DNA of 64,000 nt from Devosia ginsengisoli (lineage in GTDB: Bacteria > Pseudomonadota > Alphaproteobacteria > Rhizobiales > Devosiaceae). How positions within the stretch are numbered: the stretch's first letter is position 1; each line of letters starts with the position of its first letter. The position numbers were made by a program, and so were the translations under genes. The stretch is taken from the NCBI RefSeq assembly GCF_024707105.1, contig NZ_JANQAJ010000013.1:186001-250000 (forward strand), written 5' to 3'. Positions 7,628 to 38,848 of the stretch are shown piece by piece. The notes beneath the pieces were generated by a model. The model worked only from the letters and a program-made list of their open reading frames with translations, was not told the DNA's origin and did not search any database.

Positions 7628-7642
7628 TTAACGATTGGTTAC
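7628..7642. promoter_or_regulatory. CtrA-like box between fliL and flgF
   Basis: TTAACGATTGGTTAC, one mismatch from TTAA-N7-TTAA, 68 bp upstream of the fliL ATG. In Caulobacter the fliLM operon is a CtrA-dependent class II promoter, so the position fits. The single mismatch keeps confidence low. Confidence 0.4.
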
Positions 7643-7656
7643 AAACTGACCTCAAG

Positions 7657-7685
7657 CGGCAAAATTTGCCGGGCAGCTTTTGCCG
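7657..7685. promoter_or_regulatory. Tandem ftr-like palindromes (FlbD enhancer candidates)
   Basis: CGGCAAAATTTGCCG (7657-7671) is a near-perfect palindrome, followed at once by a second, CGGGCAGCTTTTGCCG (7670-7685). The pair lies about 75-100 bp upstream of a sigma-54 match for flgF. The motif resembles the Caulobacter ftr sequence bound by the sigma-54 activator FlbD and recurs before flgI/fliX and flgE. Confidence 0.55.
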
Positions 7686-7760: not shown

Positions 7761-7776
7761 TGGCATGGTTGCTGCA
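7761..7776 (+). promoter_or_regulatory. Sigma-54 -24/-12 promoter candidate for flgF
   Basis: TGGCATGGTTGCTGCA compared with TGGCAYR-N4-TTGCW: one mismatch, with GG and GC at the required spacing. It ends 70 bp before the flgF ATG. The rest of the 286 bp fliL-flgF gap holds the CtrA-like and ftr-like sites and no gene. Confidence 0.5.
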
Positions 7777-7846
7777 AGGTAAATGGCGAGGCCGCGGCTT
7801 GGGGAAGTTGGCAGTCTCGGGGACGTTAACATTCCGGGGATCAGCA

Positions 7847-8587
7847 ATGATCGAGAATGCGCAACTCATCAGCCTTTCCAGGCAGATAGCGCTGCAGCGG
7901 CAGATGGACGTGGTGGCCAACAACATGGCCAATATCAACACGTCCGGCTTCAAGGCCGAGAACATCCTGTTCGAGGAATATGTGATGCCGGTCGCCCGCG
8001 ACCAGGATTTCCCGAGCCTCGACCAGCCGCTCTCCTATGTGCAGGACTGGGCCACGGTCCATGACCTCAGCGGCGGCGCCATGGTGCAGACCGGCAACGA
8101 CCTCGATGTGGGCCTCAATGGCGACGGCTTCTTCGCCGTGCAGACCCCGGCCGGCGAGCGCTGGACCAGGTCCGGCGCCTTCCAGCTCAGCGCCAACGGC
8201 ACGCTGGTCGACCTCAACGGCAACCCGGTGCTCGGCGAAGGTGGCCCGATGCAGTTCGGCGCCGAGGAAACCGGCATCCTGATCGCCGCCGACGGTTCGG
8301 TCAGCTCCAGCGCCGGCCCCAAGGGCCGCCTGCGCCTGGTCGAATTCGCCAATGCGCAGGAATTGACCCGCGAGGGCAACAACTTGTTTGCCGGCGGCAC
8401 GCCGGTCGCTGCAACCAATACAAGCGCCATGCAGGGCTTCATCGAACGCTCCAACGTCTCGGGCGTCGCCGAAATGGCCGAAATGATCCGCGTGACCCGC
8501 GCCTACGAATCCGCCGCCAATCTGGCCCAGAAGCAGGATGAGCTGCGCCGCAGCGCCATCCAGCGGCTGGGCGACGCCAACGCCTGA
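7847..8587 (+). CDS. flgF: Flagellar basal-body rod protein FlgF
   Basis: 246 residues. FlgF is a proximal rod subunit exported by the flagellar type III apparatus. The start at 7847 gives MIENAQLISLSRQIALQRQM, the normal N-terminus with the rod signature NNMANINTSGFKAE at about 23-36. The ORF track's start at 7364 would add 161 spurious residues running back into fliL. The C-terminal helix ends in the conserved EMIRVTRAYESAANL. The ribosome site is weak (GGGGA 10 bp upstream). First gene of flgF-flgG-flgA-flgH, with a sigma-54 candidate 70 bp upstream. Confidence 0.95.
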   Translation: MIENAQLISLSRQIALQRQMDVVANNMANINTSGFKAENILFEEYVMPVARDQDFPSLDQPLSYVQDWATVHDLSGGAMVQTGNDLDVGLNGDGFFAVQTPAGERWTRSGAFQLSANGTLVDLNGNPVLGEGGPMQFGAEETGILIAADGSVSSSAGPKGRLRLVEFANAQELTREGNNLFAGGTPVAATNTSAMQGFIERSNVSGVAEMAEMIRVTRAYESAANLAQKQDELRRSAIQRLGDANA

Positions 8588-15253: not shown

Positions 15254-15350
15254 ATTCACCGCTCAGGACTGGTTCCAAATCACCGGACTAATCCTCGTGT
15301 CATCGGCAAGAAGCGCTCGGAGGGAGCGCAGCCCAGACAGGAGAGACCAA

Positions 15351-15785
15351 ATGATCCGCAAGTTCTTCATCACCGCAGTCGCCGCCGTCGCCATCGCTGC
15401 CTCGGCCGCCCCCGCAATGTCCAACGACGTCTTCGTCAACCAGTTCGGTTTCGGCAATGCCGCGGGCGGCAGCCAGCTCGGCTGGAACAACCTGCTCGGC
15501 GTCGACCAGACCGGCAACTGGAACACTGCCGTCGGCCACCAGAATGGCGGCAACAATGTCGGCGCCATCGGCCAGCAGGGCAACAACAACTACGGCGACA
15601 CCTGGCAGAACGGCTGGAACAACGCCGCCGGCGTCGGCCAGTTCGGCGACAACCACACCGCCATCCTGACCCAGGACGGCAATGGCAACGTCGCCGCCGG
15701 CGTGCAGGTCGGCAATGGCTGCGCCGCCAATGTCAACCAGGCCGGCTCGGGCAATGTCACCGCTTTCGTCCAGGCCTGCCCGTAA
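15351..15785 (+). CDS. Curlin-repeat amyloid subunit, first copy
   Basis: 144 residues with a Sec signal (residues 1-23, ending APAMS). The mature part consists of degenerate curlin repeats rich in N, G and Q (QFGFGNAAGGSQLGWNN, QTGNWNTAVGHQNGGNN, QQGNNNYGDTWQNGWNN). Curlins are secreted and polymerise into beta-helical functional amyloid (curli). ATG 15351 has AGGAGA upstream. Two Cys near the C-terminus (NGCAAN, QACP) are unusual for CsgA and may form a disulfide. It is followed by csgH and a second curlin gene. Whether it is the CsgA or CsgB equivalent cannot be decided. Confidence 0.85.
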   Translation: MIRKFFITAVAAVAIAASAAPAMSNDVFVNQFGFGNAAGGSQLGWNNLLGVDQTGNWNTAVGHQNGGNNVGAIGQQGNNNYGDTWQNGWNNAAGVGQFGDNHTAILTQDGNGNVAAGVQVGNGCAANVNQAGSGNVTAFVQACP

Positions 15786-15864
15786 CCGGTCCTGACGTGA
15801 CCTGCGCATAGCCGGAAGGGCCACCCCCTTCCGGCTCGTCCGCCACCGAAATCAGGAGGAAGCC

Positions 15865-16251
15865 ATGACCATCTCACCCCGGCGCATCGGCGCCATCGCC
15901 CTCGGCCTCGCCGTCGCCGCCTTCGCGGCCAATGCGGGCCTCGCCAATTCCGCATCGGGCGACACCCTATGCGGCATCGCCACCAGCTCCGAGCGCGGCA
16001 TGCTGGCGCTCGAGGGCACCATTGTCAGCCCCGTCGCGCTCAGCGGCGAATATCGCCTTGCCATCCAGAGCTCGGGCAATGGCGGCTCGTCCAATATCAG
16101 CCAGGGCGGCTATTTCACCGCCAATGCCAATGAAGCCACGACGCTGGGCAAGGTGCTGATCAATGCCGGCTCCAGCTACAGCATCGACTTCAATGTCAGT
16201 GCCGGTGGCCAGAAGATCGATTGCGATCAGGAAATTGCGAGCCTGCGTTGA
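15865..16251 (+). CDS. csgH: Curli assembly chaperone CsgH-like protein
   Basis: 128 residues with a Sec signal peptide (ending about ANAGLA). The mature domain is a small all-beta fold with two conserved cysteines (LCGIATSS and KIDCDQE), as in alphaproteobacterial CsgH, a periplasmic inhibitor of premature curli polymerisation. The ribosome site AGGAGG precedes the ATG by 6 bp. It lies between two curlin genes and is followed by a clear terminator. Assignment rests on size, cysteine pattern and neighbours. Confidence 0.82.
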   Translation: MTISPRRIGAIALGLAVAAFAANAGLANSASGDTLCGIATSSERGMLALEGTIVSPVALSGEYRLAIQSSGNGGSSNISQGGYFTANANEATTLGKVLINAGSSYSIDFNVSAGGQKIDCDQEIASLR

Positions 16252-16273
16252 ATCACATCATCAGGGACGGCTG

Positions 16274-16303
16274 AAAAGGCTCCGGGACACCGGGGCCTTT
16301 TTT
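16274..16303 (+). terminator. Rho-independent terminator after csgH
   Basis: 12 bp stem AAAAGGCTCCGG / CCGGGGCCTTTT with a 4-base loop and T-run. Ends the curlin-csgH transcript, so the second curlin gene has its own promoter in the 240 bp after it. Confidence 0.85.
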
Positions 16304-16316
16304 GTGTGTCTCGAGT

Positions 16317-16406
16317 AGCCCTCATGGTGAGCCCGTCGAACCACGAAGGCGTGGCACCCAAGCCTCCACTCGCTCAACCTCGTGGTTCGACAGGCTCACC
16401 ATGAGG
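16317..16406. repeat. Dispersed palindromic repeat, family A, copy 3
   Basis: Arms AGCCCTCATGGTGAGCCCGT and ACAGGCTCACCATGAGG around a centre containing the paired CCACGAAGGCG / CAACCTCGTGG. Lies between the csgH terminator and the second curlin gene. Confidence 0.9.
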
Positions 16407-16549
16407 TTTTCGATAATTTCAACGCACATTCCCTCGCTGAACCCATTCTGAACACCCCGCTCCAAACCGGTTCAGTCGCGCTCCCCTAGTCTCGGGTCAT
16501 CGGCTGGAACACCCCAGCACATACCAACAGTTTCTCAGGGAGAGATGCC

Positions 16550-16969
16550 ATGACCACCACGTTCACCAAGACCTTCGTCGCCGCCGTTGCAGCCGCCGTC
16601 ATCGGCACTGCCGCCCTCGCCGCCCCCGCCATGGCTGCCGGCCAGGTTTCGATCAGCTTCACGCCCACGGACCCCGACCAGCAGCAGGCGCTGGGTGCCG
16701 GCCTGCAGATCTTCTCGCTGATGCAGGGCCTGTCCTCGACCGGCGCCAATGCCAGCCAGAACGGCAATTTCAACGCCGCCGGCTTCAACCAGAACGGCTC
16801 GGGCAATCACGGCCTGATCGTGCAGGAAGGCAATGGCCATAACGGCACCATCGAGCAGAACGGCAACAACAACAATTGCGGCCTGTTCCAGTTCGGCGAA
16901 AACACCAATGGCCAGTGCGTGCAGAACGGCAATGGCCAGTCGAGCGTGACGACGGTGTTCGGCTTCTAA
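16550..16969 (+). CDS. Curlin-repeat amyloid subunit, second copy
   Basis: 139 residues with signal peptide (ending APAMA, about residue 27). Residues 60-135 contain curlin repeats (SQNGNFNAAGFNQNGSGN, VQEGNGHNGTIEQNGNN). A non-repetitive stretch VSISFTPTDPDQQQALG precedes them, resembling the N-terminal secretion or anchoring segment of curlins. ATG 16550 has a GGGAGAG ribosome site. Two Cys (NNCGLF, GQCVQN) parallel those in the first copy. No csgG, csgE or csgF is in the window, so the secretion genes must be elsewhere. Confidence 0.85.
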   Translation: MTTTFTKTFVAAVAAAVIGTAALAAPAMAAGQVSISFTPTDPDQQQALGAGLQIFSLMQGLSSTGANASQNGNFNAAGFNQNGSGNHGLIVQEGNGHNGTIEQNGNNNNCGLFQFGENTNGQCVQNGNGQSSVTTVFGF

Positions 16970-16991: not shown

Positions 16992-17020
16992 CGGGCCCTG
17001 CGGGGCCCGTTTCCGTTTCT
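16992..17020. terminator. Terminator between second curlin gene and pbpC
   Basis: Stem CGGGCCC / GGGCCCG with loop TGCG, followed by TTTCCGTTTCT on the plus strand. Located between convergent genes; serves the curlin gene. Confidence 0.7.
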
Positions 17021-19157
17021 AGTTCAAAAACACCGTCACCGTATCGGCCTGGCCCGCGGCATCTACCACGGACAGGGTGACAAAGCCCGGTCCGTCGGGT
17101 TCCCACAGGCTCTGGCGGGCGAATTCGGGGCGGCCGAAGGGGGCGCCGTTGGCGAAGAAGATGAAGGGTGGCACCCCATTGCGCACCTTGACCATCAGCG
17201 GGGAGATGTCACCCGCCGCCAGGCCGAGATCGACATCGACGCCATCGGCCGGAAAGGCGATTTCGGGCGCAGCGACGCGGGCGACCATATCTTCGTTGGG
17301 GTGACGGAAGCGGCGCAAAGGCATCGGCAATTCGCTGTTGGAGGCAAAGAGCACGCCCTGCGGCGCCCGGGGCAGCGGCGCCTTGCGATTGCCGAGGCGG
17401 TCGAAGGCCTCGAACAAGATTGGCGCGGCGCCGGTAATGCCTGATAGCCCCGGCACCGGGGCGCCATCGGGCCGCCCGACCCAGACGCCGATGACCGTCT
17501 TGCCATCGAAGCCGATGGCCCAGCCGTCGCGATAGCCATAGGACGTGCCGGTCTTGTAGGCGATGCGGCCGGGCGAGCCGTTGAGCGGCGGCGGCACGTC
17601 GGCGAGAATGTCGGACACATACCAGGCCGAAACCGGATCCAGCACCGGCGCAGCGATTTCGGCTGATGGTGCCGGCCCGATCCCGTCATAGAGCCGGATC
17701 GGCTTGCCGCCATTGCCGATGGCGGCATAGACGGAGACGAGGTCGCGCAGGGTGATGCCGACGCCGCCAAGGCCCACGGCGAGGCTCGGCGCGGTATTGA
17801 TCGGCAGGCGCGGATCGGCATGGGCGCGGCGCAGGCGGGATACCAGGCGCGCCGGACCGACCGCATCGAGCACCACCACGGCGGGGATGTTGAGCGACTC
17901 CGTCAGCGCGTCGTGGATGGTCACCGTGCCCCGGCTGAAGCCGTCGAAATTGACCGGGACATAGGCGCCGAAGGCGGTGGGGCGGTCCTCGATGAGACTT
18001 TCGGGATGGGCCAGGCCCAGCTCGAAAGCCAAGCCGTAGATCAGCGGCTTGAGGGTCGAGCCGGGCGAGCGGATGGCATTGGTCATGTCGACGAAGCCGG
18101 CGCTCTGGATAGAGAACAGGCCCGCCGAACCGACCGAGGCGAGAACTTCGCCGCTGGCGATATCGGCGGCGACGATGGCGACGGATACTTTGGGATCGAT
18201 CAGCCTGGCACGGCCGGCAGCGAGATGCTCCAGCGCATCCTGCAGGCGCTTGTCCACGGTCAGCTCGATCGCTCGCGCCGTGGGTTGTGCTCGCACCGCC
18301 TGCGCGGCCATATGCGCCGCCAGCATCGGAAATTCCCGCCTTCCGGTAGGCACCGGTTCGCGCTTGGCGACCAGGGCGTCTTCCGGCGGCAGGGCGCCAG
18401 TTGCCACCAGCCGGTCCAGCACCATGTCGCGGCTGCGCTCGGCGGCGACGGGATCGCGGTCGGGACGGCGTGCTTCGGGTGATTGCGGCAAGGCCACCAG
18501 CAGGGCGGCCTCGGCGATGGTCAGCCGTCCAGGCTCCTTGCCGAAATAGGCCAGGGTCGCCGCGCGAATGCCCTCGATATTGCCGCCATAGGGAGCCAGG
18601 GTGAGGTAGAGATCGATGATCTCATCCTTGCTGAGCTCGTGTTCCAGCCTGTCGGCATGCACCATCTGGCGCAGCTTGCCCCAGATATCGCGCGTCGGCT
18701 CGCCCTCGATCAGCCGCGCCACCTGCATGGTGAGCGTCGAGCCGCCGGAGACGACGCGACCGGCCATGACGAACTGCCCGGCAGCGCGCAGCATGGAGCT
18801 CCAGGCAATACCACTATGCTCGGCAAAGCCGCGGTCCTCATAGGCAATGAGCATCTGGATGAAGCGCGGATCGACGGCGGTGCGATCCACCGGCAAGCGC
18901 CAGCGGCCGTCGCCGGTGGTGAACGGACGGAGTAGCATACCATTGCGATCGGTGACGGCGACGGAAACCGGCAACGTCGCTACGTCGGGCGTCGGCGGCA
19001 GCGTACCGGCAATGCCTGATAGCATGGAATTAAGCTGGATGGCGCCCGCGGCCGCAACGACGAACACGCCGAAACCCGCAAGCGTCAGCCACCGCGCCAA
19101 TCCCTTCCGGGAGCGGCGCGGCTGCGGTTCGGGTGCGGCTGCCTCAACCCCGCTCAT
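17019..19157 (-). CDS. pbpC: Penicillin-binding protein 1C
   Basis: 712 residues from ATG 19157. Bifunctional class A PBP: N-terminal membrane anchor (about 24-45), GT51 glycosyltransferase (EDRGFAEHSGI, GGSTLTMQVARL), transpeptidase with SxxK serine in PGSTLKPL and KTGTSYGYRDG, then a C-terminal BiPBP_C domain. It acts in periplasmic peptidoglycan synthesis or repair. The start overlaps the stop of the alpha-2-macroglobulin gene (ATGA), the classic pbpC/A2M pairing. The track's 787-residue version extends upstream into the A2M gene in another frame and is wrong. Confidence 0.93.
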   Translation of the reverse strand: MSGVEAAAPEPQPRRSRKGLARWLTLAGFGVFVVAAAGAIQLNSMLSGIAGTLPPTPDVATLPVSVAVTDRNGMLLRPFTTGDGRWRLPVDRTAVDPRFIQMLIAYEDRGFAEHSGIAWSSMLRAAGQFVMAGRVVSGGSTLTMQVARLIEGEPTRDIWGKLRQMVHADRLEHELSKDEIIDLYLTLAPYGGNIEGIRAATLAYFGKEPGRLTIAEAALLVALPQSPEARRPDRDPVAAERSRDMVLDRLVATGALPPEDALVAKREPVPTGRREFPMLAAHMAAQAVRAQPTARAIELTVDKRLQDALEHLAAGRARLIDPKVSVAIVAADIASGEVLASVGSAGLFSIQSAGFVDMTNAIRSPGSTLKPLIYGLAFELGLAHPESLIEDRPTAFGAYVPVNFDGFSRGTVTIHDALTESLNIPAVVVLDAVGPARLVSRLRRAHADPRLPINTAPSLAVGLGGVGITLRDLVSVYAAIGNGGKPIRLYDGIGPAPSAEIAAPVLDPVSAWYVSDILADVPPPLNGSPGRIAYKTGTSYGYRDGWAIGFDGKTVIGVWVGRPDGAPVPGLSGITGAAPILFEAFDRLGNRKAPLPRAPQGVLFASNSELPMPLRRFRHPNEDMVARVAAPEIAFPADGVDVDLGLAAGDISPLMVKVRNGVPPFIFFANGAPFGRPEFARQSLWEPDGPGFVTLSVVDAAGQADTVTVFLN

Positions 19158-22100
19158 GGTCCGGTCGGTGTGACCTCGATGGCACCGGCGGCGGTGTTCG
19201 CCCGGAATTCGGGGCGATACATGTCTTCCACCGTTGCGCCGGGCAGCACGAATGTGCCGGGCGACACGGCGCGCACCAGATAGGCGGTGGTGAAGGTGCC
19301 GGTTTGATCGAAATAGCGGAAGGCGGCGACATACTGGTCGGTCCGCGATTCCACATGGGTTGCCGCATTGAGTTCGAGCCAACTGAAATCGGCTACGCCG
19401 CTGCCGGCGGAGAGGTCCGGATTTTCGATCTCGAAGCCCGCAGGCAGCGGATCGGCCAGGAGATACTGGCCCGAACCCAGGTTTTGCGGCCGCACTGTCA
19501 GCACCACGACGAGGCGATCATTCTGCGCAATGGGCGCCGCCTGCGGGTCGACCGGCGTGCCATCGGGCAGGAAATATTCGCGGGCGATGGTGAAGCCATC
19601 GCTGGTGGCACGCGGCGGCGTGATCGGATAGCCGGTCACGGTCACCTTCGCCTCGGTATCGGCAGCGCCAGTATTGGCGATCTCGACCGTTTCGAAACCG
19701 GTCTGATCGTAGCGCCGATAGACCTGGCCCGTGAGGGCTTCGCCATCGAGCGTGATCGAGCCATCAGTGCTGGAGGCGCCGAGTGCTGCTGCGGCCATGA
19801 GGGTCCAGCTATCTTCCTGCGTCGAGGTATAGCGCGCCCGGTCACGCAGCTTGGCCAGTTCATTGGCCAGTTCCGTAAGGTTGATACCAGCCGGCTTGAA
19901 CTCGGCGGCCAAGGCCAGCACGCCGGCATAGTCGCGCATGCGGCTGCCATAGTCGCCGCGATAGCGCTTGATGTTGTCGGGTGATTTAAGCCCGGCAATG
20001 GCTGCCTCGAAAGCGGATTTGGCGCGTGTCGGGTCGCCATAGAGCGCCAGCGCCGCCCCGAGTTGCGCCTGGGCTAGGGGCGAGCCGAAGGCATTGAGGC
20101 GCGCCTCGTGATAATAGCGCAGGTCGCCCATGGAGACCCGCCCAGCCCGGGCCAGATCGTAGAGCGCATAGGCGATGTCTTCGCCGCCATTGTCGAAGTC
20201 GGAGGCGTAGGACAACTGATTGGCCAGGTTGTCGAAGGCCATGGTCAGCGACTGTTCAGGCACGGCATAGCCGGCTGCCTTGGCGCGCAGCAGGAAGTCG
20301 GTGACATAGCCATCGAGCCACAGGTCGCCGCCATCGAATGGCCCCCAGAGGCCGAAGCCGCCATTGGAACTCTGCTTGGCGAGCAGGTTGGCGATGGCGT
20401 CCGTCACGGTCTGGTTGAGCTTGTCGTCGGTTGCGGTGCCTACCAGCTTGGCCACGTCGTTGAGGTAGAGCAGCGGCAAGGCGCGGCTCGAAACCTGCTC
20501 GGCACAGCCATAGGGGTAGCGGTCGAGCGCCAGCAGCAGACCGGGCACGTCGAGCCGGGCAATCGGCCCGATCGCCAGCGTCATGGCGCCGGTATCGGTC
20601 ATGTAGCTCTCGAAATAATCCGGACCGACGGTGATGCTCTCACCCGCCTTGATCGGCAGGACGCGGCTGGTGGTGACAGGTGCGCTGGTGGGCCGCACGC
20701 CGAGGAGGAGTTCCTTGGTCTGCGTGCTGCCGTCGGGCGCGGTGATGGTCAGCACAACCGGCCAGTCGCCGATCTGCATGCCGTTGAGCCTTAGATCGAG
20801 CGCGGTTCGCTCGCCCTGGGCCAGCTCGACATCGCTGTCCGCGGCCGGCGTGGCAATGCCCTCGCCGGTCGCCAGCGAAACGCCATAAGAGCCATCGGCG
20901 CCACCGACATTGTTGATTTCGACCAAGAGGCGCGACTCGTCGCCGACACGGAGGAAGCGCGGCGGGCTGAGGGTCACGACGACAGGATCACGGACGATCA
21001 CGTCGGCCGAGGCGTGGCCAACCGCAGTGTCGGTCCAGGCCATGGCCATGACGCGCACGGTGCCGGAGAAGTCCGGCATGTCGAAGGTGATGGTGGCCTT
21101 GCCGTCGGCATCGACCTCGACAATGCCCGAATGGAGGGCAACGAGAACCGAAGTCGGCGGCGGCGTGCCGGTGCGGGACGAACCACCGTCACCGCCCGAG
21201 CGCATGGCGCCGGACAGCCCCTGGGTCGGATCGATCAGCGAGCCATAGAGGTCGCGGATATCCATGCCGAGCTGACGCTGGCCGAAATACCAGCCATCCG
21301 GGTCAGGCACCTTGAAATTGGTGAGGTTGAGAATGCCCAGATCCACCGCGGCCACGGCCACATAGGCCTTTTGGCCGGCGGCCAGATTGCCCAGTTCCAC
21401 CGTGGTGGTGAAGCTCTGCCGCGGCAGGGTCACCTCGGGCGTATCGAGGCTCACGTCGAGCTTGCGGTCACCCGGCTCGACATCGGCGAAGGCCAGGCCC
21501 AAAGCCCGCGACGGCATGCGCTTTTCGGCAACGTCGGACGGGCGATAGAGAATGGCCGTCACATAGGCGCCGGGGCCCCATTCATCGGTCACTTCGAGCG
21601 GAACCGTAGTGCCGCCTTCAGGTACATCGACAGCCTGCATGGCGATGACGCGGTTGTCGATCACCATCACCAGCGCCGTGCCGGCAAATTGCGGGTCGAG
21701 CTTGAGCTGGGCGGTATCGCCCACCTTATAGCCGGGCTTGTCGAGCGCGACCTGCAAGGTGTCGGGCGTATCGCTGCCGGCATCGGCATAATAGTAGCCG
21801 GCATAGAATTCATAGCTGGACGAGGTCGCATCTGGCCCGCTGCTGTCCACCTCGACCCGGTAGCGGCCCCAATCGACATTGGTGCCGATCGTCGCCGGCC
21901 CGCCATCGGACGTGGCGGCGGTGCCGCTGGCGATTTCGCGCGTCGTGGTGATGGCTTCCCAGCGCCAGTTGCTGCCGGAGCGGTACCATTGGTAATGGGT
22001 CTCGACGCGCGAAATGCTCCAGTTGAGGTCGTCCTTGGCGACGGCTTCGCCGTCAGGTGACACGACGACGATATCGAAGCGAGCCTCGCTGCCCTCGGCG

Positions 22101-24649
22101 AGCCCGGACGCGTCGCTGAAGACCGGCTTGATGCCGATAAGGTCGCTATTGGCGAGCACCGGCCGGCTGATGCTGCGCTCGATGCTGCGCCCATTGGTAT
22201 CGACCAGGCGCATCAGCACCTGCGCCTGCAGCGGGCGCGTCGTGGCCTGCGGCTCGGGCAGCACGATCTCGGCTACGGCATGGCCGGTTTCATCGGTCGT
22301 GCCGACGACGCCCAGCGGCTCGCGATTGGTTTCGATCGTATCGTCCAGCCGGCCGAATGTGTAGCCGGGGAAATCCGGCAGGCTCGTTACCGGACGGATG
22401 ATGGCATCGGCCTCGATGGCGAGACCGGGCGCGGTGGCGCCATAGAGGTATTTGGCGTCGACATCGACTTCGGTCACCTCGCCGGTCGCCATCGGCGCAT
22501 CGGCAGCGCTGATCTCGAAGGCCAGCCGCTCGGGCTCGAAATCCTCCACGAGGAAACTGGTGCTCGACAGTGCTTCGGCCTTCGGATCGGCATAGAGCCG
22601 GGCCGTCCAGGAGCCGCGCATGGCCTCGGCGACCAGCGGCAAGGCCACGAAATAGCCACCAGCGCCTTCGTCGCTTAGCACCTGCCTGCTGGAAATAACG
22701 CCATCCGGGCGCTCGACTTCCAGGGTCAGCGGCAGGCCGGTGACTGCATTGGCGCGTTCGTCGCGCAGCAGAGCAGTGAGATAGACGGTTTCGCCGGGGC
22801 GATAGACACCACGCTCGGTGGTGGCGAAGATATCCAGCGGGCCGGGTGACGGCCGCCCTTCGACGCCACGATCGGTCAGGTCGAAGGCCGGGCGCGACAG
22901 GTCGAGGAAGGCATAATCGCCATCGCCGGTCTCGGCGACCAGCAATTGCGGCGCCCTGCCCCCTTCGCCCCGCGCCAGGCCCGGCGCGAAGACCGCGCGG
23001 CCATCGGCATCGCTGGTGGTCTCGCCCAGGATTTCATTGTTGACCGCGACAAGGCGCACCTTGGCATCGGCAATCGGCTGCGCATCGGTGAGGCTGCGCA
23101 CGAAGGCATGCACGCCATCGTCGCCGGCAATGGTGGTGAGGCCCAGATCGGTGACGATGAACCACTGCGTGGCCACGCTGTCCCAATATTCGGTCTGCTC
23201 ATCCTTGATCTTGGCGGTGATGACATAGGCGCCGGCCTCCATCTGGCCGAGCGTTTCGGCCACGGGAATCGCCGTGGTGGTCAATTCATTGGGCTTGCCC
23301 CGCGCCAGATCGACTTCGCCGTTCCAGACCTGCTCACCCACGCGGCCGGCAATGTCCTCGGCGTCATATTCGGTCAGGCTTCCCTGGAAGATGCCGTCGC
23401 GCACGGCGGTTGCGATGGAACGGTCGCCCACGCGATAGATCATGACTTCGGCCACATCGGCATTGACCGAGGTGATCGGCAGCCCGCCACCCAGACCCGC
23501 CGGCATGACATAGGCATTGTTGGCAAAGCCGACAAAGGGCGAGCGATCCGGTATATAGATGTCGAGCACGACATCCTTGAGCAGTTCCTCGCCATCGACC
23601 GACGGCAGGCCGGCGCGCAGGCGAATGGCATAGCGCCCGCCATGCAGCAGGCCGCCAATGCAGATCTGATCCTGCTCGGGCTCGACGGAAGCCTGCGGCG
23701 TATCGGCGACGACCACGAACGCCGACAAATCGGTCGAGCCATAGGGCAATGGGTCGGAAAAGACCGCGCAGACGCGCGGCGAGGCGGCCTCGGCATCGAC
23801 GACGTGGTTGACCACGCGGAAGCCGTGCTGGGCGACGACACTATCGAGATGGGTGGCGACGGCCTCGTTTTCCGCCAGCTTCAGGCTCACCCGGTAGGTC
23901 GCGATGACCTCGCGCCACATTTCGCGATATTCCATCCCATTGGCCAAGGCAGCCAGGGCATCGGCGCGGTCCTGCGGCTCGCTGGCGCGCAGGAAGGCGT
24001 TCATGGCCGCCGAAGTGGCGAGGCGCGCCAGGTCGCCGCTATTGTCGCCTTCCGACAGACCCGCAACCGTTTCGGCTTGCGTCAGCGCCACCTGCGCCAG
24101 GGCCTGCCAGACCGCACGATCATTGGCATTGATGGCCAGGGCCTGCCGGTAGGCGGTGATGGCCGCGAGGGAATTGCCGGCCGCAGCGGCCTCCTCGGCG
24201 GAAGCCACCAAGTCGGCATAGGTGACCTTGGGCGGCGGCGCATCGGTCTGCGGCAGGCCACGGGCAAAGCTGCGCGCGGAATCGATGATGCTCTGGGCGG
24301 GGAACGGCAATTCGGCCTGGCGGACCGCTTCGATCACGGCCGGCGACGGCGCCCGGCTGACGCGGCCCGACACGGCACCGGCAAATTCGGTCTGCTCGCC
24401 GACCGCGCCCTTGAGGAAGCACCAGTTGGACTGGCTGTTGAAGGTGAAGGCACGGCAGATATTGTCGTCGGTGCAGGCCGCGGTGCAGGCATCGAGATCG
24501 GTATTGCGGATAATCGAATAATCGGAACCCGGCAGGTCGGTATCCTGCAGCAGCGTGACCTTGTGGTCAGCCGCCAGCGCCGGAGAGGCACCCAAGGCCA
24601 GAACCAGCGCCAGCCCCAGCGCGCGCATCTTCGAGATGACCTGCAGCAT
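19154..24649 (-). CDS. Alpha-2-macroglobulin family protein with PAN/Apple domain
   Basis: 1831 residues with signal peptide (ending ALAA). An N-terminal PAN/Apple-like Cys-rich segment (residues 40-95, ACTAACTDDNICRAF) and a helical region come before the macroglobulin (MG) domains and the complement-like thioester domain. The thioester motif is YPYGCAEQ at about residue 1380, so the reactive Cys-Gln pair is retained. Bacterial A2Ms trap proteases in the periplasm and are usually paired with PBP1C, as here, to guard breached envelope sites. This one has the YfaS-like architecture but lacks an obvious lipobox, so it is probably soluble. It is preceded by a short gap and the dksA terminator. 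Confidence 0.92.
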   Translation of the reverse strand: MLQVISKMRALGLALVLALGASPALAADHKVTLLQDTDLPGSDYSIIRNTDLDACTAACTDDNICRAFTFNSQSNWCFLKGAVGEQTEFAGAVSGRVSRAPSPAVIEAVRQAELPFPAQSIIDSARSFARGLPQTDAPPPKVTYADLVASAEEAAAAGNSLAAITAYRQALAINANDRAVWQALAQVALTQAETVAGLSEGDNSGDLARLATSAAMNAFLRASEPQDRADALAALANGMEYREMWREVIATYRVSLKLAENEAVATHLDSVVAQHGFRVVNHVVDAEAASPRVCAVFSDPLPYGSTDLSAFVVVADTPQASVEPEQDQICIGGLLHGGRYAIRLRAGLPSVDGEELLKDVVLDIYIPDRSPFVGFANNAYVMPAGLGGGLPITSVNADVAEVMIYRVGDRSIATAVRDGIFQGSLTEYDAEDIAGRVGEQVWNGEVDLARGKPNELTTTAIPVAETLGQMEAGAYVITAKIKDEQTEYWDSVATQWFIVTDLGLTTIAGDDGVHAFVRSLTDAQPIADAKVRLVAVNNEILGETTSDADGRAVFAPGLARGEGGRAPQLLVAETGDGDYAFLDLSRPAFDLTDRGVEGRPSPGPLDIFATTERGVYRPGETVYLTALLRDERANAVTGLPLTLEVERPDGVISSRQVLSDEGAGGYFVALPLVAEAMRGSWTARLYADPKAEALSSTSFLVEDFEPERLAFEISAADAPMATGEVTEVDVDAKYLYGATAPGLAIEADAIIRPVTSLPDFPGYTFGRLDDTIETNREPLGVVGTTDETGHAVAEIVLPEPQATTRPLQAQVLMRLVDTNGRSIERSISRPVLANSDLIGIKPVFSDASGLAEGSEARFDIVVVSPDGEAVAKDDLNWSISRVETHYQWYRSGSNWRWEAITTTREIASGTAATSDGGPATIGTNVDWGRYRVEVDSSGPDATSSSYEFYAGYYYADAGSDTPDTLQVALDKPGYKVGDTAQLKLDPQFAGTALVMVIDNRVIAMQAVDVPEGGTTVPLEVTDEWGPGAYVTAILYRPSDVAEKRMPSRALGLAFADVEPGDRKLDVSLDTPEVTLPRQSFTTTVELGNLAAGQKAYVAVAAVDLGILNLTNFKVPDPDGWYFGQRQLGMDIRDLYGSLIDPTQGLSGAMRSGGDGGSSRTGTPPPTSVLVALHSGIVEVDADGKATITFDMPDFSGTVRVMAMAWTDTAVGHASADVIVRDPVVVTLSPPRFLRVGDESRLLVEINNVGGADGSYGVSLATGEGIATPAADSDVELAQGERTALDLRLNGMQIGDWPVVLTITAPDGSTQTKELLLGVRPTSAPVTTSRVLPIKAGESITVGPDYFESYMTDTGAMTLAIGPIARLDVPGLLLALDRYPYGCAEQVSSRALPLLYLNDVAKLVGTATDDKLNQTVTDAIANLLAKQSSNGGFGLWGPFDGGDLWLDGYVTDFLLRAKAAGYAVPEQSLTMAFDNLANQLSYASDFDNGGEDIAYALYDLARAGRVSMGDLRYYHEARLNAFGSPLAQAQLGAALALYGDPTRAKSAFEAAIAGLKSPDNIKRYRGDYGSRMRDYAGVLALAAEFKPAGINLTELANELAKLRDRARYTSTQEDSWTLMAAAALGASSTDGSITLDGEALTGQVYRRYDQTGFETVEIANTGAADTEAKVTVTGYPITPPRATSDGFTIAREYFLPDGTPVDPQAAPIAQNDRLVVVLTVRPQNLGSGQYLLADPLPAGFEIENPDLSAGSGVADFSWLELNAATHVESRTDQYVAAFRYFDQTGTFTTAYLVRAVSPGTFVLPGATVEDMYRPEFRANTAAGAIEVTPTGP

Positions 24650-25379: not shown

Positions 25380-25801
25380 TCACGCCGAGGGGAAACGCCC
25401 GAACTTGGCCAGTTCCACGCGCACCCGCAGCTCGATGTCATCGAGCACCGCATCGAGACCCGGCAGCGAGTGCTCGCGCGCCTCCGACAGCATCGCCACC
25501 ATGCTGTCCAGCCGGTCGGCACTGATCCGGCCAACCAGCAGATCCGCCTTGATATCGTCGAGCAGGTCGAGCAGCGAGGCGCCGCGACGCACCGCCTTCT
25601 TCCGGCCGGTCAACGGGCCGTCCACGGCCTGCAACGCCAGGATGGCGTCGATCCCGCCGGTGGCTTGCATAGGCACATTGCCCGCCACCCGCGCCGGGGC
25701 GCATTGCCGCCGGCCGGCACGAAATCCGCACCCGAGCCGGAACGGCCGATACCGCTGCCGCGGCCGGCGCCCGTCGTTCGATTGGTGGTTTCGATGCGCA
25801 A
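25380..25801 (-). CDS. fliX: Flagellar assembly regulator FliX (apparent frameshift near 25696-25699)
   Basis: FliX in Caulobacter couples basal-body assembly to activity of the sigma-54 activator FlbD. The N-terminal part (RIETTNRTTGAGRGSG, low-complexity Gly/Ser) and the C-terminal helical part (GIDAILALQAVDG, RRGASLLDLLDDIKADLLVG, LRVRVELAKFGRFPSA) are in different frames. One more base in the 4-G run at 25696-25699 would join them as ...NAPPARVAGNVPMQ..., about 140 residues, a typical FliX. Length 422 nt is one short of a multiple of three. The start is probably TTG 25801, with TTG 25813 as alternative. Divergent from flgI, sharing an intergenic region with CtrA-, ftr- and sigma-54-like sites. 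Confidence 0.8.
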
Positions 25802-25832: not shown

Positions 25833-25847
25833 CGGCAAAATCTGCCG
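25833..25847. promoter_or_regulatory. ftr-like palindrome (FlbD enhancer candidate)
   Basis: CGGCAAAATCTGCCG differs by one base from the copy at 7657. It lies about 130 bp upstream of the sigma-54 match for flgI and 32 bp upstream of the fliX start, so it could also repress fliX. Confidence 0.55.
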
Positions 25848-25854
25848 CCAGCCG

Positions 25855-25869
25855 TTAACAAGGCATTAA
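25855..25869. promoter_or_regulatory. Perfect CtrA box between fliX and flgI
   Basis: TTAACAAGGCATTAA is an exact TTAA-N7-TTAA match (followed by C). It lies 54 bp upstream of the fliX start. In Caulobacter fliX is a CtrA-dependent class II gene, so both the sequence and the position fit. Confidence 0.65.
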
Positions 25870-25975
25870 CGAACCCGGCAAGAATTGCTCACCACGTCCG
25901 CTTGACGAGCCAAACCCGGTTTGAAACATCCAAAATATCCTTGAATCCCAAGGCACTGCCGCTACCGGATCAAAC

Positions 25976-25991
25976 TGGCACGGTTTTCGCA
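25976..25991 (+). promoter_or_regulatory. Sigma-54 -24/-12 promoter candidate for flgI
   Basis: TGGCACGGTTTTCGCA compared with TGGCACG-N4-TTGCW: perfect -24 element and one mismatch in -12. It ends 58 bp before the flgI ATG. Confidence 0.65.
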
Positions 25992-26049
25992 ATGTGACCG
26001 TCGAACGCTGCGCCATGGGGATGGAGCGGCCAGACGACGGGGATGCCGG

Positions 26050-27173
26050 ATGACCAAATCGCTGCTGCACAGGCTGATCGCGGGACTGCTCACCATGACA
26101 ATGGTGTTGCTGCCTGCCATTGAAGCGCAGGCCGCCTCCGCCCGTATCAAGGATATCGTGAATTTCGAGGGCGTGCGCGAGAACCAGTTGGTCGGCTATG
26201 GCCTGGTGGTCGGGCTCAACGGCACCGGCGACAGTCTCAACAACTCCCCGTTCACCAAGCAGTCCCTGCAATCCATGCTGGAGCGGCTGGGCGTCAACAC
26301 CGCCGGCGAGAATGTCCGCACCGCCAATGTGGCGGCGGTGATGGTCACCGCCAATCTGCCCCCTTCGCCACCCAGGGCTCGCGCATGGATGTGTCGGTCG
26401 CCGCACTTGGTGATGCCGATAGCCTGCAGGGCGGCACATTGCTGGTGACCCCGCTGCTCGGCGCCGATGGCGAGGTCTACGCCATCGCCCAGGGCCCGGT
26501 TTCCATCAACGGCTTCAAGGCCCAGGGCGACGCCGCCACCATCATTTCCGGCGTGCCGACCACCGGCCGCATTTCCTCCGGCGCCCTGATCGAGCGCGAG
26601 ATCGACTTCCATCTCGGCAGCCAGACCTCCTTGCGCCTGGCCCTGCGCAACCCGGACCTCACCACGGCGCGCCGCATCGCGCTGGCCGTCAACGACTTCA
26701 TCGGCGCCCCCACGGCAACGCCGGAAGACCCGGCCACGGTGCGCCTCACCCTGCCCTATGGCTTCAACGGCAATATTGTCGACCTGCTGACCGATATCGA
26801 ACAGTTGATGGTCCAGACCGACCAGACGGCCAAGATCGTCATCGACGAGAATTCCGGCATCATCGTCATGGGCAAGGATGTGCGCGTGTCGAGCGTGGCG
26901 GTGGCACAATCCAACCTCACCGTCACCATCGCCGAAAATCCCACCGTGGTTCAGCCCAATCCACTGAGCCTGGGCGTCACCGCGGTCGAGCCCAATACCA
27001 ACCTCAATGCCAACCTGTCGGAAAGCGCCCTGTCGGTCGTCAATGAATCCGTGTCGCTGCAGGAACTGGTCGATGGGCTCAATGCCCTGGGCATTTCCCC
27101 GCGCGACCTGATCGCCATTCTTCAGGCGATCAAGGCCACCGGCGCGTTGCAGGCCGAAATCGAGGTGCTGTAA
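26050..27173 (+). CDS. flgI: Flagellar P-ring protein FlgI (apparent frameshift near 26359-26363)
   Basis: FlgI forms the periplasmic P-ring around the rod. Signal peptide residues 1-30 (ending EAQAA). N-terminal [31 protein letters not shown] and the rest ([20 protein letters not shown] to the C-terminal [22 protein letters not shown]) are in two frames. One extra C in the 5-C run at 26359-26363 would give [19 protein letters not shown], the conserved family sequence, and a 374-residue protein. The track splits it into 26050-26448 and 26385-27173. First gene of an operon with the flgJ-like and flgN-like genes; a sigma-54 candidate lies upstream. Confidence 0.9.
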
Positions 27174-28489: not shown

Positions 28490-28610
28490 GCGCAATTTGC
28501 CTAAATATTCGTCACCCGCTTAATGCTTCTTTAGAGGCTGCCGGATGAGGATCGGCTTGCCTCAGGAGAGGCGTGTTAGTTTGCGTAATCCTAGAAAAGG
28601 ACTTAGTAGC

Positions 28611-30216: not shown

Positions 30217-30293
30217 GATTCTGTGCGCTAAAAGTGATGCAACCTCAAGGAGAGGCATGAGCCGACGATCGGCGCCGTAGTGAAGGAAGCACA

Positions 30294-32070
30294 ATGTCCG
30301 ATATCTCTCTCTCGAAAGCCGTTCGGTCGAACCTGCTTTCGCTGCAGAACACCGCCACCATGATGGCCAGGACACAGGAACGCCTGTCCACCGGCAACAA
30401 GGTGAACTCGGCTCTCGACAATCCGACCAATTTCTTCACGGCCTCCTCGCTCAATGCCCGCGCCGGCGACCTGAACTCGCTGATGGACTCCATGGCCAAC
30501 GGCATCCAGACGCTCGAAGCGGCGGATAACGGCCTGACCTCGATCACCAAGACGCTGGAATCGATGCAGTCCACCCTGCGCCAGGCGCGGCAGGACAAGA
30601 GCTTCCAGACCGATTCCTTCTCGCTCGACCCTGAAAACATCGGCGTGGGCCTGGCTCGTACGCTCGACTTCACCAACGGGGCCTTCGAGACCCCCGGCAG
30701 CATCAACCTGCACAAGAATGTCATCGTGGGGCAGAACGGCTTCGTCAATGGCGGCACGGCCGGCAAGGCCGGTACGCTGGAGATCGAAACCCCCAGCCTC
30801 AATGGCGGCACGGCCATCACCGTGGCCTTCACCGCCGCCGATACGGTCGAGACCTTCGCGGCCAAGATCAATGCCCACATCTCCACCCTGAGCGATGGCG
30901 GCGGCGTGACAGCCCGCGCGGTGAACGGTCAGCTCGAAATTGCCAGCGCCAAGGCGGAACCCGTCACACTGGCCGGCACGGAACTCGAATATGTCGGCCT
31001 CGGCGGCGCGGACGAAGCAGCCACCCCGGCAACCCGCAATGGCTCTGCAGCCGTGGCGGCCGGCGCCATCGGCGCCTTCTCCTTCACCATCAACGGACTG
31101 ACAGTCAATGTCGGTGCCGTCAACAACGTCGCGGCGACGGACAATGCCGACGCCATCGTCGATTACATCAACAACTCCTCCGCCGCCCAGGCCGCAGGTG
31201 TGGTGGCCAGCAACAATGCCGGCGTCATCGAGCTCGAAAATGCTGATGGCAAGAACTTCACGGTGAACGGCACCGGCCTCACCACGCTCAATATCGCGGC
31301 CGGCGCCACGACGGATGGTATTCCAGCCTCCGGCACGGCCGTCCCGACAGTCCAGGCCTTTGCGGTCAAGACCGTGGATGAGCTGGTGCGCGAGATCAAC
31401 CGAGACCTCCGAGCTCAAGACCAAGATCCGCGCCAGCAACGACAATGGCAAGCTGCGCATCGAGAACCTGTCCACCCAGGAACTCGATATCGCCGGCGTC
31501 ACCTCCTCGGGTATCGTCGATGGCACCTCGTTCGGTGCAGCCAAGATTGACGGAAACTCCGTGCGTGGGGACCTCGCCGAGCAGTTCAACGAGTTGCGCG
31601 ACCAGCTCGACAAGCTGGCCGACGACGCCTCGTTCAACGGTATCAACCTGCTGCGCGGCGACAACCTCAAGATCACCTTCAACGAAAACGGCACGTCTTC
31701 GATCGACATCCAGACCAAGAATGGCGATGCTTTGAGCGCCGCCAATCTCGGCCTGTACGACCTGATCGCGAAGAATCTCGATGCGGATGCCGACATCGAC
31801 ACCCTGCTCGGCGAAGTGAAGATGGCCCTGGCCAACGTGCGCTCCCAGGCCTCGTCCTTCGGCTACAATCTGTCGATCGTGCAGAACCGCCAGAACTTCA
31901 CCAAGGAAATGGTCAACACGCTGCAGACCGGCGCCGCCAACCTGACGCTGGCCGACATGAATGAGGAAGCCGCCAACCTGCTGGCCCTGCAGACCCGCCA
32001 GTCGCTCAGCTCCTCCTCGCTGTCGCTGGCTTCGCAGGCCGATCAGTCGGTTCTCCAGCTTCTCCAGTAA
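30294..32070 (+). CDS. Flagellin 2 (apparent frameshift near 31400)
   Basis: About 591 residues if corrected, roughly 100 longer than flagellin 1 because of a bigger variable centre. The N-terminal MSDISLSKAVRSNLLSLQNT and all of the C-terminal D1/D0 region are present but in two frames. Removing one C at 31400-31401 restores VDELVREINETSELKTKIRASNDNGKL, parallel to flagellin 1. Total length is one more than a multiple of three. If the shift were real, the product would end soon after residue 415 and lack the C-terminal helices needed for polymerisation. Ribosome site GAAGGA before ATG 30294. A terminator follows. Confidence 0.9.
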
Positions 32071-32187: not shown

Positions 32188-32583
32188 ATGGCGCTCAAGG
32201 TGGAGCTCAAGCCGGGCGAAAAGCTGCTGGTGGGCAACTGCATCATCACCAATTCCGATCAGCGGACGCGCCTGTTCATCGATGGCCGCGCGCCGATCCT
32301 GCGGGAAAAGGACATCCTGACCGCCGAAACGGCCAATACCCCGGCCAAGCGCATCTATCTAGCGGTGCAGTTGATGTATATCGGGGATGATATCGGGCTG
32401 ACGCGGGACCAATATTTTTCGCTGGTCAACGAGTTCCTCGAAGCCGTCCCGTCATCCACAGAAATAGTAAACCAAATCAACAACGAGATATTAACCGGGC
32501 AACTGTACAAGGCTCTGAAGGCTGCTCAACGCCTCATCGAGTACGAACAGGATCTCTTTTCCAATGCATCAACAGGGCGCTAG
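32188..32583 (+). CDS. flbT: Flagellin mRNA regulator FlbT
   Basis: 131 residues. FlbT is an alphaproteobacterial post-transcriptional regulator that binds the 5' untranslated region of flagellin mRNA and ties its stability to assembly. Family sequence is clear: MALKVELKPGEKLLVGNCII, NSDQRTRLFIDGRAPILREKD and QLYKALKAAQRLIEYEQ. Its 3' end overlaps flaF by 20 bp, so the two are coupled. Placed directly after the two flagellins it is expected to control. Confidence 0.95.
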   Translation: MALKVELKPGEKLLVGNCIITNSDQRTRLFIDGRAPILREKDILTAETANTPAKRIYLAVQLMYIGDDIGLTRDQYFSLVNEFLEAVPSSTEIVNQINNEILTGQLYKALKAAQRLIEYEQDLFSNASTGR

Positions 32584-33006: not shown

Positions 33007-34960
33007 CTAGATGAAGTTCACCAGGCTGAGCTTGCTGACCATCGAGGTCGTCTGGTAGCTCGCCTGCAGGCGCGTCTGCAGCGCCAGGATTTCCATGGCC
33101 ACATCTTCCTTGCTCACCGTTTCGATATCGCTGAGCAGGTTGTCAAGCTGGGCCTTGTAATTGGTGTGGCGCTCGGCCGAATTATTGTTGGCAATCTGCG
33201 CCACGGCCAGTTCCATCGTCAGGATTTCGATGGAGCCACGTTCCGAATTGTGTGACTCCGACATTTCCGATTGCTGGCGCAACGCCATGGCATCGAAACG
33301 GGCCAGCGCATTCGGATCGCCGTCCGGATAGGTCTCGACCGACATGGCACCGAGCGTGCGGATCATACGCAGAAAACCGGATTCATTGGCTTCAAGACCG
33401 TAGGCGACCCGACTGGAATCATCGACCTGGGCGGTCACGCTCTGACGCGGATTGCCTTCGGCAAGCATGGCGGTCTGCGTCAGGGCCAGTTCCAGGCCCT
33501 TGGCGAAGTTTGCCGCATTTTCGTCGGCGCTGCCGCCAATGCTGAACTGGCCGGCCATGGCCTTGCCGGTCACCGCGGTCAGTTGAACCGTGCGCGTCGT
33601 GCCATCGGGCTCCCGAAGGGTGACGCTGACCACTTCATTGGGCGTCAGCGTGGCCGAGAAAGCGACATTGACGCTGCTGGGATCGGCGCCGGTATAGGTG
33701 GTGTCGATATTGGCCGTGTCGGCCGAGACGCCGATGATCTGGAAACCATGCGCCGCCGAAACCGGCGACTTTTCCTGCAGGGTCACGACGCCGCCCGCCG
33801 TATCGATGCCCAGCCGCCCCAGCCCTTCGGCCGCGACGGCCGGTGACTGGCCGCGATACCATAGCACGGTATCGGCATCGGTGGCCACCTTGAGCGCCGT
33901 CGCGGTCGCCGGATCGCCATCGACGCGCAGGGCCGGCTCGCCCGGACCATTGAAGAACATTTCCGCCGCCGCGAAGGTGGACGCTGCTTCCAGATCGGAC
34001 CCCGCCGCCGCCTCGAGACTCGTCTGCAAGGCAGCTTGGAAGTTGGTCGCGGTAACGGCCGGATCGGCGGGAACAGCGGGGGCCGACAGTGCCGGGATCG
34101 ACCACGAACTGGCCGGGACCGGCAGGTCCGTCCTCGGGTGCGATCGCCGTCAGCGTGATCTGGGTATCGCGACCATCGGGCAGTTGCAGCCCCAGAGTAA
34201 TGGTCTGGCCGGGCAACATCTGCGCGGCGGGCGGCGCTTCGAAGGTGATGGTATTGGTATTGCCCGGCTGCGGCACGGCGGCCGGTGACGGCGCCACGCT
34301 ACCGACATTGACGGAGGCCAGCGGGGCGGTGCTGGTCACGCGCAGCAGCTTGAAGCCGAACGGGTGAATACCATCCTCGGTCAGGCTGACGGAATTGGGG
34401 GTCGGCTGATCCAGCACCAGGCGCCCGAGGCCATCGGCGCCGGCATCGGCGGCCTTGCGCTCGCCCACCACGGTCTTGAAGCCATCCTTGCCGCCGATGC
34501 CTTCGAGCAGGCTGTTGGTATCGGGCAGCGGGGCGCTGTCGGTATTGGCGCCGCCGAACAGATAGCGGCCTGCGACATCGGCATTGAGCAGGGTCACCAG
34601 CTCGTCGAACCGCGCCTTGGACAGGCCTGGCAGGGTAGCCATATTGATATTGTTGGTGCCGTATTGCCCCTGCACCGCCGAATTGCGCGTTTCCGCTTCC
34701 ATGGCATCGAGGCGCGTCATGGTCTTGTCGAGGAAGCTCAGCCGCAGGTTGACCGTGTCGATATTGGCCGAGAAGCCCTCGATCTTGCTCAGACGCGCCC
34801 GCACCGACAGCGACATGGGCAGGTCGCGCCCCATTTCGGAGAGCTTGGAGGCTTTCTCGCCGGTACCCAACTGCATCTGCAGCGTGGCAAAGCGATCCTG
34901 CATCTTCGAGATGACGCCGAATCCGGTCTGCAGCGGAAACATCGACTTGTTGACGATCAT
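33007..34960 (-). CDS. flgL: Hook-filament junction protein FlgL (apparent frameshift near 34078-34082)
   Basis: FlgL is the second junction protein between hook and filament. The N-terminal MIVNKSMFPLQTGFGVISKMQ with flagellin-like helix LGTGEKASKLSEMGRDLPMS and the C-terminal helix (EKDVAMEILALQTRLQAS-type, ending SMVSKLSLVNFI) are in two frames. The 5-G run at 34078-34082 marks the switch (one base too many, or two missing). Total 1954 nt is one over a multiple of three; the corrected length is about 650 residues, long for FlgL because of a large central insertion. Third gene of flgE-flgK-flgL. The track shows it as 33635-34960 and 33007-34029. Confidence 0.88.
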
Positions 34961-38732: not shown

Positions 38733-38748
38733 TGCAAACGGGATGCCA
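38733..38748 (-). promoter_or_regulatory. Sigma-54 -24/-12 promoter candidate for flgE
   Basis: Minus strand TGGCATCCCGTTTGCA: perfect TTGCA -12 element and one mismatch in the -24 element, correct spacing. Ends about 53 bp before the flgE ATG. Confidence 0.65.
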
Positions 38749-38833: not shown

Positions 38834-38848
38834 CGGCAGAAATTGCCG
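38834..38848. promoter_or_regulatory. ftr-like palindrome upstream of flgE
   Basis: CGGCAGAAATTGCCG, inside a longer palindrome GCGGGCGGCA / TGCCGCCCGC (38829-38853). It lies about 85 bp upstream of the flgE sigma-54 site. It is also 30 bp before the divergent ATPase gene, so an RNA hairpin role is possible. Confidence 0.5.

Follow-up and report, generated by a model that had tools for sequence, protein, structure and literature searches.

A probable Caulobacter-type control region between fliX and flgI in Devosia, with a candidate RNA hairpin in the flgI leader

The divergent flagellar genes fliX and flgI of a Devosia genome are separated by a region in which sites typical of the Caulobacter flagellar hierarchy appear to be combined. 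We analysed a 64-kb stretch of DNA around this region (hereafter the window), together with the rest of the genome and related loci, and asked whether the genes are controlled as in Caulobacter or by a rhizobial system of the VisNR/Rem type. In Caulobacter, CtrA switches on class II genes, fliX among them, while FlbD bound at ftr sites acts with IHF to activate sigma-54 class III promoters and represses class II genes, and FliX switches FlbD according to the state of flagellar assembly (PMC3930126, PMC3096577, PMC6180460). A sequence-only reading of the region had listed one site of each type and proposed that this hierarchy operates here.

The assembly comprises 4.37 Mb in 15 contigs, and the FlgI protein of the window shares 97% identity with those of Devosia sp. 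Root436 and Root635. fliX lies on the minus strand (25380 to 25801; Pfam FliX, E=1e-29), and its TTG start codon at 25801 is backed by an alternation of TTG, GTG and ATG at the same codon among relatives. flgI, the gene for the P-ring protein, lies on the plus strand (26050 to 27173; E=9e-94). Both reading frames are broken in the assembly: fliX near 25696, and flgI near 26360, where one base is missing in comparison with three close relatives, such that the gene is split into 26050 to 26448 and 26385 to 27173. The sequence-only reading described the sites between the genes correctly and missed both frameshifts. Many one-base errors in a single genome indicate a fault of sequencing or assembly, which is most likely the cause in fliX and flgI, although a genuine loss of motility in the strain is conceivable. 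Because both genes are frameshifted, function of the region in this very strain is an assumption. Other genes also appear to be split, namely a flagellin (30294 to 31550 and 31315 to 32070) and a fliK-like gene on contig C7 (locus L168), and single-base insertions or deletions seem to divide an ORF pair at 33 to 35 kb (33635 to 34029).

Reading outward from fliX, the order of sites is CGGCAAAATCTGCCG, TTAACAAGGCATTAA, CGGCAAGAATTGCT and TGGCACGGTTTTCGCA. The first is an ftr-like palindrome (25833 to 25847) that precedes the fliX start codon by 32 to 46 bp, and is presumably a FlbD site. The second, at 25855 to 25869, is a predicted CtrA box, and the last, at 25976 to 25991 on the plus strand, is a predicted -24/-12 sigma-54 promoter of flgI that is conserved across Alphaproteobacteria and would place the transcription start near 26001. 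These are the exact TTAA-N7-TTAA beside fliX, the palindrome and the TGGCACG-N4-TCGCA element of the sequence-only reading, and all three are present as it described them. Its inventory overlooked a second, imperfect ftr-like site beyond the CtrA box, at 25876 to 25889 (CGGCAAGAATTGC at 25876 to 25888), whose centre is 21 bp from that of the CtrA box. Several relatives carry the full GGCA-N5-TGCC at this place, but this genome does not. Between the second ftr-like site and the promoter, the stretch at 25940 to 25960 (WATCAANNNNTTR) aligns to an IHF-like site that is clear in many relatives and weak here.

The motifs differ in how far their frequency sets them apart from chance. An exact TTAA-N7-TTAA occurs only once in the window, at the site beside fliX (0.02 copies expected), and CGGCA-N5-TGCCG occurs three times where 0.34 copies are expected, a number reached in none of 100 shuffles. 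By contrast, TGGCAY-N6-YGC alone is at chance level, with 8 matches in the window versus 6.3 expected. The sigma-54 motif is therefore credible through its conservation and its pairing with palindromes, and not through motif frequency. That chance-level frequency, like the frameshifts in fliX and flgI, is what one would expect if the sites were degenerate relics or coincidences and flagellar control were rhizobial (VisNR/Rem) or due to some other sigma-54 activator. We regard this explanation as very improbable, on the basis of the comparative evidence and the regulators described below.

Spacing between the sites is nearly fixed across the family. Among 59 Devosiaceae loci with a recognizable CtrA box, the first ftr-like site and the CtrA box are 22 bp apart, centre to centre, in 54, and the CtrA box and the second ftr-like site are 21 bp apart in 53, where centres defined by script may differ by one base from those read off the window. 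The first ftr-like site retains GGCA-N5-TGCC in 58 of these 59 loci. Within the CtrA box, the N7 spacer drifts among relatives, and both TTAA half-sites are retained. The distance from the CtrA box to the sigma-54 site, which spans 82 to 137 bp, falls only into the classes 82, 91-94, 102-105, 113-115, 124-127 and 133-137. Its best period is 10.8 to 10.9 bp, with a Rayleigh R of 0.88 for all distances and 0.78 for unique ones, and none of 20,000 random draws matched the periodicity of the unique distances. Kinship among the genomes is ignored in this test, and shared descent affects even the unique distances in part, but the empty gaps between classes are evident in the raw counts. An IHF-like match of at least 8 of 9 positions lies between the second ftr-like site and the promoter in 48% of loci, compared with 6% of shuffles, and is weak in this genome. 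Taken together, the fixed spacing and the jumps by whole helical turns strongly support the predicted binding and looping, and they argue against relics. In effect, the family offers a natural phasing experiment in which one enhancer module stands at six helical distances from a sigma-54 promoter. A strict CtrA box was absent from six examined loci, including Maritalea, and these kept the sigma-54 site and mostly the ftr-like site. In the Maritalea loci L074, L076, L077 and L080, the sigma-54 site, the ftr-like site and the leader hairpin discussed below are all kept, and the strict CtrA box of fliX is missing.

The genome encodes the regulators that these sites would need. The earlier reading had advised a search for flbD, ctrA and rpoN, and all three were found. 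rpoN is present in one copy (Sigma54_DBD, E=3.6e-63). CtrA is 83% identical to the Caulobacter protein and scores 425 bits against a cut-off of 350 for the NCBIfam equivalog NF045991; matches to the OmpR family also exist in the genome. FlbD scores 818.5 bits against a cut-off of 750 for equivalog NF050807. Its gene is located inside the flagellar cluster, downstream of fliF, fliG, an unassigned 218-amino-acid ORF where fliH would be expected, and fliN; flhA lies downstream of it. FliX has a single orthologue, and FlbT and FlaF are encoded as well. Seven clear sigma-54 activators were detected, one of them FlbD, and the presence of six others is a further point for control by a different activator. 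By inspection, however, these are unlike FlbD, and two that are separated by 5 kb on contig C8 resemble an NtrC/NtrX pair. Rhizobial control is opposed by a search for a tandem LuxR pair of the VisNR type, in which none of the 14 LuxR-type HTH (GerE) matches were adjacent on one strand, so VisNR is not apparent in this genome.

The arrangement recurs at other flagellar promoters. All three exact CGGCA-N5-TGCCG copies in the window are upstream of late flagellar sigma-54 promoters, those of flgF, flgI and flgE. In the fliL/flgF divergent region, twin ftr-like sites (7657 to 7685; CGGCAAAATTTGCCGGGCAGCTTTTGCCG) and a CtrA-like site (7628-7642; TTAACGATTGGTTAC) accompany the predicted sigma-54 promoter of the flgF-flgG-flgA-flgH operon (7761 to 7775, plus strand; TGGCATGGTTGCTGC). 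Upstream of the hook gene flgE, whose start codon is at 38680, are an ftr-like palindrome (38834 to 38848; CGGCAGAAATTGCCG) and a predicted sigma-54 promoter on the minus strand (38734 to 38748; TGGCATCCCGTTTGC). A genome-wide search with a composite pattern (GGCA-N5-TGC followed at 70 to 100 bp by TGGCAY-N7-GC) gave 7 matches, and its reversed control gave 1. Of the seven, five mark four promoters, namely flgF (twice), flgI, flgE and the gene on contig C7, which was called FliK-like (hook-length protein) by eye from its translation. The region upstream of fliF carries the ftr-like CGGCATTTTCTGCCG and a near-CtrA box, TTAAGACAATCTTTA; this would fit a role for FlbD in repressing class II genes too, known from Caulobacter fliF (PMC3930126). 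In this fliF promoter region (L171, 4132 to 4208), two ftr-like sites surround the near-CtrA box at wider spacing (centres at 4139, 4178 and 4202).

The FlbD consensus was derived in Caulobacter, and GGCA-N5-TGCC might bind some other regulator in Devosia, with FlbD acting elsewhere. This is improbable, given that the palindromes adjoin the sigma-54 promoters of flgF, flgI, flgE and probable fliK and also occur upstream of fliF, a set that is matched by the known Caulobacter FlbD targets (PMC3930126, PMC6180460).

A search of 190 alphaproteobacterial genomes detected FliX in 104, and flgI adjoins fliX in 28 of the 30 FliX-bearing loci examined. Among those 28, a sigma-54 site is located upstream of flgI in 27, mostly with the same TCGC -12 element, an ftr-like palindrome in 23, and a strict TTAA-N7-TTA[A/C] in 7. 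As judged from these loci, the ftr and sigma-54 half of the region is old and widespread in FliX-bearing Alphaproteobacteria, which is a further argument against relics; Devosiaceae have their own form of the region, the ftr-CtrA-ftr sandwich. Since the older half is common to FliX-bearing species, the region reflects the Caulobacter hierarchy and no new principle. FliX and FlbD homologues have already been reported in polarly flagellated Alphaproteobacteria, including Bradyrhizobium and Rhodopseudomonas (PMC3096577).

Devosia resembles Caulobacter in having CtrA, FlbD, FliX, RpoN and FlbT orthologues, FlbD-type sites before sigma-54 promoters of rod, ring and hook operons, an ftr-like site at fliF and an IHF-like site in between (PMC3930126, PMC3096577). 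Unlike in Caulobacter, the CtrA box at fliX/flgI of Devosiaceae has an ftr-like site two helical turns away on either side, and the flgI and flgF leaders carry a U-GGGG-A hairpin. The fla2 system of Rhodobacter sphaeroides is similar in that divergent flagellar promoters share a CtrA site and that a same-face-of-helix constraint has been proposed, but it involves neither FlbD nor RpoN (PMC6180460).

Because the sites are conserved with fixed spacing and phasing, and because the regulators are present, the proposal that a Caulobacter-type hierarchy operates here is supported. We estimate a probability of roughly four in five that CtrA, FlbD, IHF and sigma-54 serve the fliX/flgI region as a compact control module for divergent genes on the Caulobacter pattern, supplemented by a post-transcriptional hairpin step; confidence in this last step is far lower than in the promoter part. 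From TTAA-N7-TTAA, about 60 bp before fliX, CtrA would drive early fliX transcription, as its position and the Caulobacter system suggest. FlbD would occupy both ftr-like sites flanking the CtrA box and, through DNA bending that IHF likely assists, would contact sigma-54 polymerase at the flgI promoter about 95 to 140 bp away, in keeping with the observed phasing. Since the first ftr-like site is placed between the CtrA box and the start of fliX, approximately covering the -10/+1 region, FlbD bound there should repress fliX and may shut it off, as at Caulobacter fliF. FliX would couple FlbD activity to flagellar assembly, as is known from Caulobacter. Finally, a U-GGGG-A hairpin near the 5' end of flgI and flgF mRNAs and a second GGGGA at the ribosome-binding site would most likely provide a second, post-transcriptional control of the P- and L-ring operons by an RNA-binding factor. 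With good support, the module thus extends the Caulobacter scheme to Devosiaceae, where its geometry is distinctive, and the comparative data show the CtrA/FliX/FlbD/sigma-54 hierarchy at work in Hyphomicrobiales beyond the Rhizobiaceae.

Of the features described here, the hairpin has the best claim to novelty; it was overlooked when the promoter sites of the fliX/flgI region were correctly described from the sequence. In the flgI 5' UTR, it has the form CCAU-GGGG-AUGG (26013 to 26024, plus strand), with a folded lower stem that extends to 26007-26030, and the leader alignment places a second GGGGA at the ribosome-binding position (26039 to 26043, plus strand). The flgF 5' UTR has a hairpin with the same U-GGGG-A core (7795 to 7810, plus strand; CGGCUUGGGGAAGUUG), and GGGGA recurs before the flgF ATG at 7847. 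In 67 loci, from Devosiaceae and a few neighbours, a GGGG loop closed by U-A occurs in 55, about 41 nucleotides past the first base of the sigma-54 site. Hairpin loci were selected for GGGGA and at least three pairs, such that the inner three pairs and the invariant A partly reflect selection and the outer pairs are free. Over the seven pairs of the stem, 87.6% of cells are paired versus 62.6% in shuffles, and cells with double changes number 83 versus 23.9. The covariation score is 0.60, compared with 0.15 for shuffled and 0.07 to 0.13 for slid alignments, and was reached in none of 500 shuffles. GGGGA is found 3 to 12 nucleotides before the flgI start codon in 56 of 67 leaders, and in 51 of the 55 hairpin loci, versus approximately 5% of ORFs in the same loci. 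Leaders of flgF, a set that takes in a few unlabelled flgF-like leaders by similarity, show the same elements at the same distance and some covariation of their own.

A composite of sigma-54 site and TGGGGA was positive in 56 of 61 Devosiaceae genomes, with far more matches than the reversed control. This genome has 8 such matches, among which only flgF and flgI are recognized as flagellar leaders. The hairpin is absent from the flgE leader of this genome and from the expected place in all 28 other alphaproteobacterial flgI leaders. The flg-Rhizobiales RNA (RF01736) was a candidate by its name and taxon, which suggest a flagellar RNA of Rhizobiales; it has three stem-loops (PMC3765529), unlike the flgI leader, and was rejected when no Rfam family matched that leader, even at E-values up to 5. 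A limited literature search on FlbT and these genes found no such leader element, and the flgI/flgF hairpin does not seem to have been described previously.

We tentatively propose, as a possibility that is somewhat doubtful as yet, that the U-GGGG-A hairpin and the GGGGA ribosome-binding site form a Devosiaceae cis-acting RNA element that provides a translational checkpoint through an RNA-binding protein other than CsrA, FlbT being one candidate. Alternatively, the inverted repeat could act as a DNA site or simply as a stabilizing hairpin, with no regulatory part in translation. It begins about 12 nucleotides past the presumed transcription start, where hairpins that protect 5' ends occur, and its folding energy is ordinary, with a minimum free energy for the flgI leader of the window that does not stand out (z -0.73). 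However, the U-GGGG-A loop never changes, and the two arms covary freely; conserved arms would be expected of a dimeric DNA site, and a hairpin serving stability alone would not conserve its loop. The recurrence of GGGGA at the ribosome-binding site also argues against this explanation, which we consider somewhat unlikely. A second hairpin around that GGGGA was rejected, as the mean stem of 2.04 versus 1.82 in shuffles (5/200) is only a slight excess. If the leader hairpin proves to have a regulatory role, it would be a new RNA element on the flagellar ring operons of a family that lacks CsrA, and translational control of ring assembly would become directly testable.

CsrA is the obvious reader of GGA hairpins, and the flgI leader resembles CsrA/RsmA leaders in that a hairpin loop contains a GGA motif and another GGA occupies the ribosome-binding site. 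The U-GGGG-A loop differs from the CsrA consensus. Moreover, csrA was found in none of 81 Devosiaceae genomes, including this one, although control genomes were positive, and the hairpin thus cannot be a CsrA target. The gene for FlbT, a post-transcriptional flagellar regulator and candidate RNA-binding partner, is located at 32188 to 32583 on the plus strand. The idea that FlbT is a CsrA homologue arose from sequence pattern and strand order, and formal tests did not support it: an hhalign comparison with five CsrA sequences gave a probability of 7.7%, Foldseek with FlbT gave no CsrA match, a PDB profile search with FlbT likewise gave none, and a model of the N-terminal part alone was poor (pLDDT 69). 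By eye, the FlbT N-terminus (LKxGEK..., ILREKDI) resembles CsrA strands, and an AlphaFold model shows a five-stranded N-terminal part whose strand order looks similar to that of CsrA.

FlbT acts on flagellin leaders in Caulobacter and Brucella. It is encoded here, and the flagellin leaders have AGGA-loop hairpins of their own; the flgI/flgF hairpin differs from the FlbT flagellin target in its motif and in its location on P- and L-ring operons. Flagellin leaders (28560-28576 and 30243-30255 in the window; loci L016-L038) carry a conserved hairpin, GCCTC-AGGA(A)-GAGGC, in most cases followed by TCCT-AGAAA-AGGA at the ribosome-binding site. These hairpins, which differ from the one in flgI and flgF leaders, could plausibly be targeted by FlbT.

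Elsewhere in the window, a small curli-like gene set (15297 to 16969) encodes two curlin-repeat proteins and a CsgH homologue. At 17019 to 24649, a gene resembling that for penicillin-binding protein 1C overlaps an 1831-amino-acid ORF (19154 to 24649). Alpha-2-macroglobulin is often encoded beside penicillin-binding protein 1C, and this ORF is possibly the alpha-2-macroglobulin partner of the penicillin-binding protein 1C-like gene.
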